Below the pieces are notes generated by a model. That model worked only from the letters and a program-made list of their open reading frames with translations. It had not been told where the DNA came from and searched no databases. Below are positions 13,143-62,273 of a stretch of DNA of 64,000 bases, piece by piece. Made by a program: the position numbers and the translations under genes. The stretch comes from Lentilactobacillus laojiaonis (lineage in GTDB: Bacteria > Bacillota > Bacilli > Lactobacillales > Lactobacillaceae): the NCBI RefSeq assembly GCF_020616595.1, contig NZ_CP085278.1:930001-994000 (forward strand), written 5' to 3'. Each line of letters starts with the position of its first letter. Within the stretch, counting starts at the first letter, position 1.

Positions 13143-14333
13143 TTAAAATCCCATTGTTAGCATCGAAGCTTTAAAAATATTTTTTACATCATCAACACTA
13201 AGTTTGACATAAGCCTTAGTATCTAATGAACCATATTTAACAGCCTCCATAGCCATTTCATCAAATTTTGAAGTATCCTCAATACCCACCTCTGGTAATG
13301 TCATTGGAGCATTTAAGGAACTAATCCATTCGTAGGTTTTTTGAATAGCTAATTCAGCGGTATTTTGATCATCTTGTCCTTGGATGTCCCAAACATTACG
13401 ACCAAATCGAGCAAATAATGCCACAGTATCCTTATTTAAAATTAATTTCATCCAGCGAGGAGTTAAAATTCCTAAACCAATTCCATGCGTAATATCATAA
13501 TATGCCGAAAGTTCATGTTCCATCGGGTGAGCCGACCAGGTATTTTGCGTTCCAGTTCTAACAATTCCATTTAAAGCCATTGTTGAAGCCCACATTAAAT
13601 TGGCACGCGCTTCATAGTTATCAGGTTCATCAATGGCAACTGGTGCCCATTTAATAACCGCACGCATGAGTCCTTCAATCATCCCTTTAGAAATATCATT
13701 ATCCTTAGCACTATCAAAATATTGTTCCGTTAAATGACTAAAAATATCAATTGAGCCAGCGGCTGTTTGATAAGCAGAAACTGTATAAGTTAATGTAGGA
13801 TCTAAAAATGAAATAGCTGGAGAATTGGGACCCTTAGTACCTAATTTTTGATTAACTTCTGGATTAGAAATAACTGAGTTAACATTCATTTCTGTTCCAG
13901 TTGCTGCTAAAGTTAAAATATCAATTACTGGTAATTGATCAATTCCCATACGGTTAGTAGGATTATCACGATCTACAAAGTCCCATGGATCGCCGTCATA
14001 GAACTTAGAAGAAGCAATGACTTTACTTGCATCAATAACTGAACCACCACCAACTGCTAAAATTACATCAATATCATTAGACTTGGTTAATTTTTGTCCC
14101 TCTCGAATTGAAGCAATTTTAGGATTAGGTTCAATCCCTGGTAATTCAGTAATATTTAATCCCTTAAGTAAGTTCATAATGCGATCATACAAACCTGACT
14201 TCTTAATTGATTGGCCCCCATAAACTAATAAAACATTTTTTCCAAATTGTTCAACACTTTCACGCAATTCGTTATCAATATGATCAGTACCGAAACGGAT
14301 GTCGGTCGAGTTTTTAAAATTAAAATTTTGCAT
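13143..14333 (-). CDS. Iron-containing alcohol dehydrogenase
   Basis: A 396-aa type III alcohol dehydrogenase, closest in style to the butanol dehydrogenase/YugJ-YqhD branch. The nucleotide-binding GGGSVIDASKVIA is near residues 95-107, and metal ligands are visible in the Asp-His segment DIFSHLTEQYF (near 207-217) and in HPMEHELSAYYDITHGIGL (near 265-285). It would reduce aldehydes with NAD(P)H, regenerating oxidised cofactor. The gene is divergent from the POT transporter leader and shares with it a region holding a perfect 18-bp inverted repeat. Confidence 0.9.
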   Translation of the reverse strand: MQNFNFKNSTDIRFGTDHIDNELRESVEQFGKNVLLVYGGQSIKKSGLYDRIMNLLKGLNITELPGIEPNPKIASIREGQKLTKSNDIDVILAVGGGSVIDASKVIASSKFYDGDPWDFVDRDNPTNRMGIDQLPVIDILTLAATGTEMNVNSVISNPEVNQKLGTKGPNSPAISFLDPTLTYTVSAYQTAAGSIDIFSHLTEQYFDSAKDNDISKGMIEGLMRAVIKWAPVAIDEPDNYEARANLMWASTMALNGIVRTGTQNTWSAHPMEHELSAYYDITHGIGLGILTPRWMKLILNKDTVALFARFGRNVWDIQGQDDQNTAELAIQKTYEWISSLNAPMTLPEVGIEDTSKFDEMAMEAVKYGSLDTKAYVKLSVDDVKNIFKASMLTMGF

Positions 14334-14385
14334 TTTAAATTACCCTCTAACTTTTTTATTAAATTTAGAATACCATAAAATTCCA

Positions 14386-14429
14386 CATACTCATTTTAAA
14401 ATTTACAGTGCAATTTTAAAATGAGTATG
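14386..14429. repeat. Perfect 18-bp inverted repeat between divergent adh and POT genes
   Basis: CATACTCATTTTAAAATT (14386-14403) and its exact complement (14412-14429) flank TACAGTGC. The candidate promoter boxes of both divergent genes overlap the repeat: TTTACA then TATGTT rightward, TTGCAC then TATGTG leftward, each with an 18-bp spacer. No T-run follows, and both genes point away from it, so an operator is more likely than a terminator. The binding protein is unknown. Confidence 0.7.
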
Positions 14430-14466
14430 TTATAGTTAATCATATTCTAATACAGGAGTGAGTTTA

Positions 14467-14520
14467 ATGCTATACACATCTAAATTACAATTAAATATTA
14501 CTGCCTGGCTTAGCTATTAG
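14467..14520 (+). CDS. 17-residue leader peptide of the POT gene leader
   Basis: ATG at 14467 to TAG at 14518-14520, encoding MLYTSKLQLNITAWLSY. AGGAG at 14454-14458 lies 8 nt before the ATG, as good a ribosome site as that of any gene nearby. The last two sense codons and the stop codon fall inside segment A, so a ribosome finishing the peptide would cover A and leave segment C free to pair with B. There is no run of a single amino-acid codon, so classical amino-acid attenuation is not obvious; nascent-peptide stalling is an alternative. Confidence 0.5.
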   Translation: MLYTSKLQLNITAWLSY

Positions 14521-14673
14521 AGCATGTCCGTAACCTAAACTGTTAGATACGGGCATTAAACGACAATGTTCGTATCTAATAGCTGGCAATTTTATGATGC
14601 AACCTATTAGATATGTTAATCAAATCTAATAGGGGCACTCAGCTGAATTAAATTAAAAACCTTTAATACCCTT

Positions 14674-14725
14674 CCATTAGATTTGACCATTGTCGATTAA
14701 ATTCTAATGGATTTTTTATTTTATT
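14674..14725 (+). terminator. Intrinsic terminator (attenuator) ahead of the POT gene
   Basis: CCATTAGA (14674-14681) pairs with TCTAATGG (14703-14710), extended inward by TTT/AAA with one bulge, and is followed by ATTTTTTATTTTATT. It would end transcription before the POT gene unless segment F is captured by segment E. Confidence 0.7.
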
Positions 14726-14737
14726 GGAGGTTTTTTA

Positions 14738-16216
14738 ATGGATCAGCAAGATATTAATAAAGATAATAAGTATCCACGGAAATTTTTTGGTCATCCGGGA
14801 ACTCTAAGAACACTTTTTATGACCGAATTTTGGGAAAGATTCAGTTACTATGGTATGCGAGCTATTTTACTTTACTACATGTACACTGCCATTAGCCAAG
14901 GAGGCTTAGGTTTAGATGTAAAATTAGCTACCTCGATTATGGCCATTTATGGATCATTAGTATATATGACTAGTGCCATTGGTGGATATGTTAGTGATCG
15001 TTTAATTGGTAGTGCTAAATCCGTACTTTACGGCGGTATCCTTATTATGATGGGTCATATATTTTTATCAATGCCAATGCGATTAAATGGGTTAATCTTA
15101 TCAATTATTTTCATTACCATTGGTACCGGATTACTTAAGCCAAACGTTTCTGAAACTGTCGGTTCGCTATACGTTAACGATCCTCATAAACGAGACTCCG
15201 CATTTAGTATCTTTGTGATGGGAATTAACTTAGGTTCATTAATTGCTCCATTAGTAGTATCCTTTGTCGGTCAAACCTATAATTACCACATGGGATTTTT
15301 ATTAGCTGCGATTGGAATGGGTTTTGGACTTATTGGTTACATTTTACAAATTAAAAATTTACCAGTCCTTAGTAAGACCGTTACTAATCCACTAACTAAG
15401 GCCGAAAAAAATTCTCTCATTAAAAAATTAACTTTAGCAATAGTATTTATTTTGATTGTGCTATTAGCCCTTAAATTAACTAATTTACTTACTGCTAATG
15501 TAGTTATCTTAATTTTTACCATTATTGGGATATTTTTGCCGGTATACTATCTAATCAATATGTTTAATAGTAAGAAAGTTACTAAGACCGAAAAACTACA
15601 CTTAAAAGCCTATTTACCACTGTTTATTTGTGAAATTTTATTTTGTATTATTGTGGAACAAGGCGGGGTTGTCCTAGCATTATTTGCCGAAGACCAAACT
15701 CAATTAAATATTGGTAGCCTTCATTTACAAGCTGGACAATTTCAATCATTAAATCCCCTATTTATTATTATCTATTCTCCAATTTTTGCCATTTTATGGA
15801 CTAAATTAGGAAAACACCAACCTAGTGCTCCAACTAAATTTGCACTTAGCTTAATTTTTAGTGGGCTATCATTTGCTGTCATGGCCATTCCCGTCGCACT
15901 TTTTGGTGCCAGTGCCAAGGTTAGTCCTTTATGGTTAGTACTAAGTTGGGCCATCCTCGAAATTGGTGAATTACTAATTTCTCCAATTGGTCTTTCGATT
16001 ACTTCTCAACTATCTCCTAAAGCCTTTAAATCTCAAATGATGAGTATGTGGTTTTTAGGTAATGCTTGTGCACAAGCATTTAACTCACAAATCGTAAGAT
16101 TATATACCCCTAATAATGAAGTTATGTACTTTAGTATCATTGGGCTTGTTTCTATCATAGCAGCGTTTGTATTACTAGCTTTAACTCCTAAGATTAAGGA
16201 ATTGATTAAGGCTTAA
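14738..16216 (+). CDS. dtpT: POT family di-/tripeptide transporter (DtpT-like)
   Basis: A 492-aa proton-coupled oligopeptide transporter with about 14 hydrophobic segments. The POT signature region [20 protein letters not shown] (proton-coupling ExxERF) is at residues 30-49, followed by GGYVSDRL and the second signature GTGLLKPNVSETVG near residues 129-142. It imports di- and tripeptides for amino-acid supply. TTGGAGG lies 8 nt before the ATG. It is preceded by a long structured leader, unlike its paralogue at 28070-29560, so the two are probably regulated differently. Confidence 0.92.
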   Translation: MDQQDINKDNKYPRKFFGHPGTLRTLFMTEFWERFSYYGMRAILLYYMYTAISQGGLGLDVKLATSIMAIYGSLVYMTSAIGGYVSDRLIGSAKSVLYGGILIMMGHIFLSMPMRLNGLILSIIFITIGTGLLKPNVSETVGSLYVNDPHKRDSAFSIFVMGINLGSLIAPLVVSFVGQTYNYHMGFLLAAIGMGFGLIGYILQIKNLPVLSKTVTNPLTKAEKNSLIKKLTLAIVFILIVLLALKLTNLLTANVVILIFTIIGIFLPVYYLINMFNSKKVTKTEKLHLKAYLPLFICEILFCIIVEQGGVVLALFAEDQTQLNIGSLHLQAGQFQSLNPLFIIIYSPIFAILWTKLGKHQPSAPTKFALSLIFSGLSFAVMAIPVALFGASAKVSPLWLVLSWAILEIGELLISPIGLSITSQLSPKAFKSQMMSMWFLGNACAQAFNSQIVRLYTPNNEVMYFSIIGLVSIIAAFVLLALTPKIKELIKA

Positions 16217-62194: not shown

Positions 62195-62273
62195 TATATA
62201 TCGCTCCTTTGCCCTGAATCATTTGTGATCCAGAGATTATCGATTAGTCAACTTTTTTAGTTTATCATAAAAA

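Follow-up and report, generated by a model that had tools for sequence, protein, structure and literature searches.

Between an iron-type alcohol dehydrogenase gene (13143–14333, minus strand) and the divergent gene of a POT family peptide transporter lies a leader of about 300 nt, and the locus raises the question of how this leader acts on the transporter gene. The window, that is, the whole 64,000-nucleotide stretch of Lentilactobacillus laojiaonis DNA analyzed here, carries the POT gene at 14738–16216 (plus strand, as for all features below unless stated otherwise). The gene is intact and encodes a di/tripeptide:H+ symporter of 492 aa (PF00854, E = 1.1e-63; TIGR00924, E = 1.2e-118). The second POT gene of this genome (28085–29554, minus strand), which is 55% identical to the first, has no such leader according to model R2 (described below). 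An imperfect palindrome with 39-nt arms that are 82% complementary (14365–14450) is found between the alcohol dehydrogenase gene and the leader, and it is perhaps an operator common to both divergent promoters. In another part of the window (62204–62235, minus strand), an L31-Firmicutes ribosomal protein leader was found (Rfam RF03156, 35.6 bits).

The leader begins with a Shine-Dalgarno sequence (AGGAG, 14454–14458) located 8 nt upstream of the ATG of a 17-codon open reading frame (MLYTSKLQLNITAWLSY*, 14467–14520; stop codon TAG at 14518–14520), an arrangement that can be read from the sequence alone and that is expected of a ribosome-mediated attenuator. Arm A, the 5′ strand of a hairpin named P2, and arms B, C, D, E, F, and G follow in this order, the chain of arms beginning inside the leader ORF and ending with an intrinsic terminator in front of the POT gene. 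Arm A (14512–14521) overlaps the last leader codons, and its partner is arm C (14570–14588), with which it forms 10 perfect base pairs (14512–14521/14575–14584). The P2 hairpin (14525–14532/14548–14555) has its 3′ strand within arm B (14543–14555), which can alternatively pair with C through nine Watson-Crick pairs and one G-U pair (14543–14552/14570–14579); both of these pairings covary in the homologues. Arm C can also pair with D (14603–14612) through 9 bp (14574–14582/14604–14612), and D with E (14620–14633) through 10 bp (14603–14612/14624–14633). Arm E can instead form an antiterminator of 11 bp with F (14673–14686; pairing 14620–14630/14676–14686), while F and G (14703–14711) are the two strands of the terminator, with 9 bp (14673–14681/14703–14711) followed by TTTTTT (14712–14717). 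Terminator and antiterminator are thus mutually exclusive. Bases 14450–14720 fold at −73.6 kcal/mol (z = −6.7), and 0 of 200 shuffled sequences folded as well. An earlier note on this DNA had described seven competing arms downstream of a leader peptide; the arms are where it had placed them, and the lengths that it gave to A:C (10 bp), B:C (9 bp), and D:E (10 bp) stand, while F:G is 9 bp instead of its 8 bp. The P2 hairpin is additional to these seven arms.

Does the leader belong to a known class? In the Rfam search, no family, T-box included, was found in it at the gathering score. A relaxed search gave eight weak matches, none of them a T-box, the best being RF02863 (sRNA_2410; 21.9 bits, E = 0.14), which is nearly colinear with the leader and whose gathering score of 61 was not reached. 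A stretch GGCTTAGC...AGAGCA, which by eye resembles the 5′ half of a tRNA, was set aside. The RF02863 model itself matched 157 of 295 genomes of the order Lactobacillales at E ≤ 0.001, of which 71 exceeded the gathering score, whereas the 14 control genomes gave no match; at E ≤ 0.001 it matched neither the window genome nor Lapidilactobacillus dextrinicus, the species with the other POT-linked copy. Model R2 was built from an alignment of 72 of the 76 non-redundant loci, the other four lacking an identifiable end of arm C, and without the two POT copies. Of 77 sources searched with R2, the two POT leaders came out on top (E = 0.0077 and 0.014), and in the window genome the leader was the only match at E ≤ 10 (E = 0.037). 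R2 matched 139 of 397 Lactobacillaceae genomes at E ≤ 0.1. Among 299 Bacilli genomes, it matched 26 at E ≤ 0.01, including 5 from outside Lactobacillales. Conversely, model R1, built from the window and L. dextrinicus copies only, found 8 further genomes among the 397; three of these matches are at R2 sites (G469, 2.1e-6; G613; G590), and a trpX-like gene lies 3′ of these common sites. Model R3 was built from 61 hand-picked diverse members, again without the window and L. dextrinicus. In the 1.24-Mb window genome it significantly matched the core of the leader (14487–14587) with 40.2 bits and E = 4e-5, the next best match having 18.0 bits and E = 6.7 (these E-values are rough, the calibration being short), and it gave 51.3 bits to the L. 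dextrinicus leader. Homology of the window leader to the RF02863 family can be taken as established, though the leader falls below the family's cut-off. The earlier note, which was made from the letters alone and could identify no known leader motif, was not in a position to see this homology.

The L. dextrinicus copy allows a direct comparison. A DNA search of 201 Lactobacillaceae genomes (E ≤ 0.001) yielded nine matches: the window's own, one true leader, and weak matches in seven other genomes (L005–L011), which on visual inspection were taken for look-alikes of terminators or ribosome-binding sites and were rejected. The genome with the true leader (G014) is, we infer, NZ_AYYK01000014.1 of L. 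dextrinicus DSM 20335. Here, too, the copy (L201; L042:1619–3060) is followed by a POT gene, but one that has lost its N-terminus and contains a frameshift. The leader ORF likewise carries a frameshift, yet most of the RNA arms are kept. With the ORF shifted and the gene decayed, it does not provide a second intact POT-linked copy. Between the two leaders, the terminator stem is kept with a wholly different sequence, and TCAAATC in E and GATTTGA in F are identical. Window positions 14579 (arm C), 14607 (arm D), and 14629 (arm E) are all changed, and by this triple change C:D and D:E both remain paired though they are mutually exclusive. The automatic arm search recovered neither A:C of L. dextrinicus (p = 0.07), which has mismatches, nor its C:D (p = 0.43), whose pairing requires that the arms be defined by the alignment.

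The genes behind the family members were examined in 160 loci, comprising 20 loci given by the RF02863 search, 100 regions picked for genus diversity among its listed matches, 30 from the R2 search of Lactobacillaceae genomes, 8 from the R1 search, the window, and L. dextrinicus. In this set, which is not a random sample, the next gene encodes a trpX-like ABC binding protein in 103 loci, shikimate dehydrogenase (aroE) in 41, and DAHP synthase in 4, so that one of these three is next in 148 of the 160. The rest are MFS transporter (3), aminotransferase (2), and POT (2) genes and, in one locus each, genes for prephenate dehydratase, an ABC permease, shikimate kinase, a protein without Pfam match, and an unclassified product. 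One representative of each of ten gene classes was checked against Pfam. The ABC binding protein is called ABC_sub_bind there, and we take it to be the protein that goes under the names trpX-like and COG2984. A POT gene is present in 157 of the 201 Lactobacillaceae genomes, and the leader was seen before it only in the window and L. dextrinicus: at 74 other POT loci (29 + 45, some from the same species), neither R2 nor R3 found a leader at E < 0.5, several of the contigs ending close upstream.

The chain of pairings is also found across the family. A:C, C:D, and E:F outperformed 100 shuffles (p ≤ 0.05) in 93%, 92%, and 86% of 103 loci, respectively; these include the window and L. dextrinicus and exclude 12 of 115 loci in which the terminator was mis-picked or no room was left for D. 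The median energies in the 103 loci are −17.0 kcal/mol for A:C, −15.4 for C:D, −14.4 for E:F, −15.5 for D:E, and −19.7 for the terminator. A simple scan found an intrinsic terminator in 159 of the 160 loci, some of them mis-placed. For P1/P2, 14 pairs were changed on both sides as compared with 3.8 in shuffles in a first analysis, and 15 as compared with 6.4 in a second; for the competing B:C, 25 cells were changed on both sides as compared with 5.8, these being shuffle tests that can be exceeded through relatedness alone. Slid controls, in which relatedness is kept, were lower on all five measures in both P1/P2 analyses; for B:C they were lower on four measures and at best equal on the number of further pair types (14). 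The two-state logic proposed in the earlier note (C:D with E:F open; D:E with F:G closed) is borne out by the homologue pairings that beat shuffles and by the joint C/D/E change that keeps both states. Two of the checks that it had suggested, for compensatory changes and with covariance models in related genomes, gave, respectively, this triple change together with the covariation of P1/P2 and B:C, and the leader homologues described above.

Covariation of this kind fits an attenuator and a ligand-binding riboswitch alike. In the latter case, the core would be the aptamer for an aromatic amino acid or a precursor, as proposed for the leader gbs2033 (PMC4448216), and the leader ORF would be incidental. 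The strong conservation of the core, the covarying P1/P2, the tightly conserved QLN box nucleotides, and the fact that the equilibrium folds by themselves need no ribosome are in keeping with such a riboswitch, as is the premature termination seen by RNA-seq for gbs2033 in Streptococcus agalactiae (PMC4448216), if gbs2033 is indeed a member of this family. What speaks against it is the coding evidence. At the expected place, running into arm A, a leader ORF was found in 156 of the 160 loci by a finder that favors aromatic and QLN-bearing frames, with a typical end of ...QLNNYYFSYFR* and a mean of 4.8 aromatic residues in the last 9 of the peptide. A Shine-Dalgarno sequence was counted in 128 of the 156, some being missed through sequence cutting. 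A test that involves no choice of ORF was also made, on the 72 of 76 non-redundant members with TTTAGCT in arm A: within the 30 nt upstream of arm A, the leader frame contains stops in 0 of 72 members, and the other frames in 62 and 51 of 72. In addition, the synonymous share of single-base codon differences is 0.309 in the leader frame as compared with 0.249 and 0.210 in the others, a value reached by 3 of 200 column shuffles (in a subset of 40 members). The aromatic codons sit in the part that covers arm A, the insertions in arm A among Lactobacillaceae are of 3 nt, and only two columns are invariant in the broad family alignment. The coding evidence thus favors translation, and we hold the riboswitch to be quite improbable; attenuation is the best explanation of the leader, the riboswitch being disfavored.

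Several features of the leader peptide deserve description. The window ORF is homologous to the family's other leader ORFs. The QLN box (CAA TTA AAT, 14488–14496) is kept in most of the family and is aligned by R3. When non-redundant members were selected for this motif, all 53 of 53 used AAT for Asn, and 47 of these 53 had an A just 5′ of the box; the Asn codon AAC does occur elsewhere in the family (L238). The nucleotide conservation of the box is tighter than the peptide alone demands. In the window, QLN is followed by ITAWLSY*: most aromatic codons are gone, one Trp (14506–14508) and one Tyr codon being left after the box. The window TGG touches an extension of P1 and may thus reflect RNA pairing. 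Trp codons near the leader end occur in only 3 of the 156 ORFs, namely in the window, in L. dextrinicus (in a shifted frame), and in the leader of the shikimate kinase gene. The last nine codons of the 100 trpX-like loci with a leader ORF include 307 Phe, 167 Tyr, and 0 Trp codons, so many such importers may carry Phe or Tyr and not Trp. The MFS-linked members (L253, L254, L255) have leaders such as MTRCILNKDYYYGFAYFS*, and these transporters may have an aromatic substrate. The leaders of the two class I/II aminotransferase loci (L229 and L232) end in ...QLNAYYYFRFFS and ...QLNAYYYFRFFR, which suggests an aromatic aminotransferase.

Taken together, the window leader is probably a ribosome-mediated transcription attenuator of the trp/his type, and its most likely trigger, held with fair confidence, is translation of the leader peptide. 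The following course can be envisaged. The leader ORF would be translated while the RNA is being made. Without a ribosome, A:C, D:E, and F:G would form, and transcription would stop. If charged tRNA is scarce and the ribosome stalls around the Ala-Trp-Leu codons, it would cover A, and C:D would form, leaving E free for E:F; with no terminator, the peptide transporter would be made. A stall would thus open the leader, and the importer would be on when an amino acid of the leader is scarce. A ribosome that reaches the stop codon would also cover the 5′ strand of P2, so that B:C, D:E, and the terminator form. In this scheme, B:C would be displaced by C:D as long as P2 can form, and A:C would persist once formed.

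This course was modeled by folding the RNA with the ribosome-covered part removed, the RNA being taken as free from the base 16 nt downstream of the start of the P-site codon. For the family, 87 of 90 loci preselected for the chain (C:D p ≤ 0.05, E:F p ≤ 0.10) were folded as transcripts ending after D. Their mean C:D pairing was 0.22 when the P site was 12 codons short of the stop, 0.67–0.73 at −9 to −5, where the Tyr-Tyr-Phe-Ser-Tyr codons are in the A site, 0.28 at −1, and 0.34 at the stop. With the ribosome at the last codon or the stop, the 5′ strand of P2 is covered and B:C pairs in these 87 loci. The folding suggests three states: closed without a ribosome, open with a stalled ribosome, and closed with a finished one. 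Before D is made, B:C at the stall positions was 0.53–0.62 in the family and 1.00 in the window; since C is already paired with B there, C:D must displace B:C, and A:C must persist. When the full terminator was included in the equilibrium folds, the 87 loci showed no average dip of termination, and almost every placement of the ribosome left them closed. It is therefore the transcripts cut after D that carry the family result.

For the window with the transcript to 14614, C:D was 0.87, 0.92, 0.55, and 0.90 with the Ala, Trp, Leu, and Ser codons, respectively, in the A site, and 0.01–0.02 from two codons before the stop onward. Changing the footprint to 13 or 18 nt gave 0.87 or 0.63, respectively, with Trp in the A site. 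The contrast with the unstalled state varied: 0.41–0.46 with the ribosome upstream versus 0.92 with Trp in the A site for the transcript to 14614, 0.81 without a ribosome versus 0.76 for the transcript to 14616, and about 0.5 upstream versus 0.36 in the setting used for the 87 loci. Thus, the closed state that the model gives the window without a ribosome depends on the transcript cut and is not robust; the Trp codon sits where a stall would free C:D, but the effect varies with the transcript end. In the whole leader, the terminator probability was 0.92 without a ribosome, 0.05 with Ile in the P site, and 0.71 with Trp in the A site; it ranged from 0.05 to 0.79 at the stall positions Ile to Leu and was 0.94 from Ser to the stop. 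Once E was made (transcript to 14650), D:E was 0.98–0.99 at all ribosome positions, and with the transcript to 14698, E:F was 0.43 with or without a stalled ribosome.

The lack of a robust contrast between the ribosome-free and stalled states would also be expected if the window element were a relic of an aromatic amino acid attenuator that now works as a constitutive partial terminator, and the loss of most aromatic codons and the decay of the only other POT-linked copy found point in the same direction. However, the ORF, the Shine-Dalgarno sequence, and arms A–G are all intact in the window, five of the six pairings are free of mismatches and B:C has one G-U, and a ribosome at the stop closed the leader in all the settings tried (C:D of 0.01–0.12). 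We therefore regard a relic as unlikely.

If the leader is a working attenuator, the amino acid sensed in the window would most likely be Trp, perhaps Leu or Tyr, and in the rest of the family Tyr or Phe. A stall may in principle have another cause. In TnaC, the ribosome is arrested in response to free Trp, and the QLN box with the aromatic residues might similarly stall the ribosome on a free amino acid, acting through the same RNA chain. Such a regulated arrest by the nascent peptide is suggested by [QKH][LI]N, which 129 of the 156 leader ORFs retain ahead of the aromatic run, including that of the window, where the run is mostly gone. In its simplest form, however, it would turn the genes on at high supply, which does not fit biosynthetic genes, and the conservation may be that of the RNA, as the invariable AAT codon of the selected members indicates. 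Arrest of this type seems highly improbable to us, and stalling at codons that lack charged tRNA is preferred.

The mechanism class is a known one. The trp, pheA, and his attenuators of enterobacteria have a leader peptide with codons for the regulated amino acid, alternative hairpins, and a terminator, the his leader having a chain of six segments. The family described here differs in that it is Gram-positive, has the conserved QLN box, and uses one element across transport and biosynthesis genes; it also has the extra pairing B:C, which would act when the ribosome reaches the stop. In Firmicutes, T-boxes usually do the work of leader-peptide attenuation. According to the accessible text of a 2010 report (PMC2965389), leader-peptide attenuation had, before the His leader of bacilli, been shown outside Proteobacteria and Actinobacteria only for ermC.

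As for the family itself, sRNA_2410 (RF02863) is recorded, in the part of the source available, as an Enterococcus faecium sRNA with two transcripts (PMC5593968). It has the same core fold as the window leader, with a trpX-like gene next in the best-scoring genomes (e.g., L043); what is filed there as an sRNA is read here as a leader-peptide attenuator, located in the window before a POT gene. Another report (PMC4448216) describes gbs1262 and gbs2033, leaders found in Lactobacillales before two paralogous ABC transporter operons, as elements that terminate prematurely and can fold in alternative ways, and it proposes them as aromatic amino acid riboswitches; gbs2033 is also located before E. 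faecium aroFBC-tyrA, as our loci L084–L086 are before a DAHP synthase gene. Set beside the family by its description, gbs2033 probably belongs to RF02863, but the text consulted describes both leaders without a leader peptide, whereas the family here has a leader ORF. Two further systems are comparable, as far as the consulted portions of their sources go. The uORFC-13-1 of Acholeplasma, located 5′ of aroF, is a leader ORF that contains one or more Phe codons and is followed by an intrinsic terminator and the gene for DAHP synthase, as in our family; the genus is different, and the likeness is one of description (PMC8632094). The trpXYZ leader of S. suis likewise subjects a trpX operon to Trp-supply control with a terminator, but it is a T-box, a tRNA-binding RNA (PMC9382623), and the window leader has no T-box match. 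According to the same source, a Trp tripeptide raised the growth of an S. suis trpX mutant, so the import of peptides can stand in for an importer of aromatic amino acids (PMC9382623). No leader peptide was described for the RF02863/gbs2033 family in a partial survey of the open-licence literature; as far as could be seen there, the family is partly recorded and apparently unrecognized as a leader-peptide attenuator. The use of this probable attenuator before a POT gene with an altered codon set is new.

A bolder reading is that the three-state QLN-box switch is one of the main means by which Lactobacillales control aromatic amino acids, and that it has been redirected in the window, with both the codons (Tyr/Phe to Trp) and the target (a peptide importer) changed. 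We put this forward as a doubtful conjecture. In its boldest form, the QLN peptide would itself act as an arrest peptide, causing ribosomes to pause at the appropriate codons.

The leader thus bears on a family that is on record as an sRNA, and probably also among the riboswitch candidates, and that looks like a leader-peptide attenuator common in Lactobacillales. If this is true, it would provide a control of the synthesis and uptake of aromatic amino acids that can be tested directly, and many trpX-like importers behind Tyr/Phe-rich leaders would serve Tyr or Phe. In L. laojiaonis, the attenuator would have been passed to a peptide importer in a genome (88.8% complete) in which no shikimate dehydrogenase was found (PF08501, 0 matches at E ≤ 0.001), and the importer would be switched on where no trpX-like importer was found either (PF04392, 0 matches at the same threshold).
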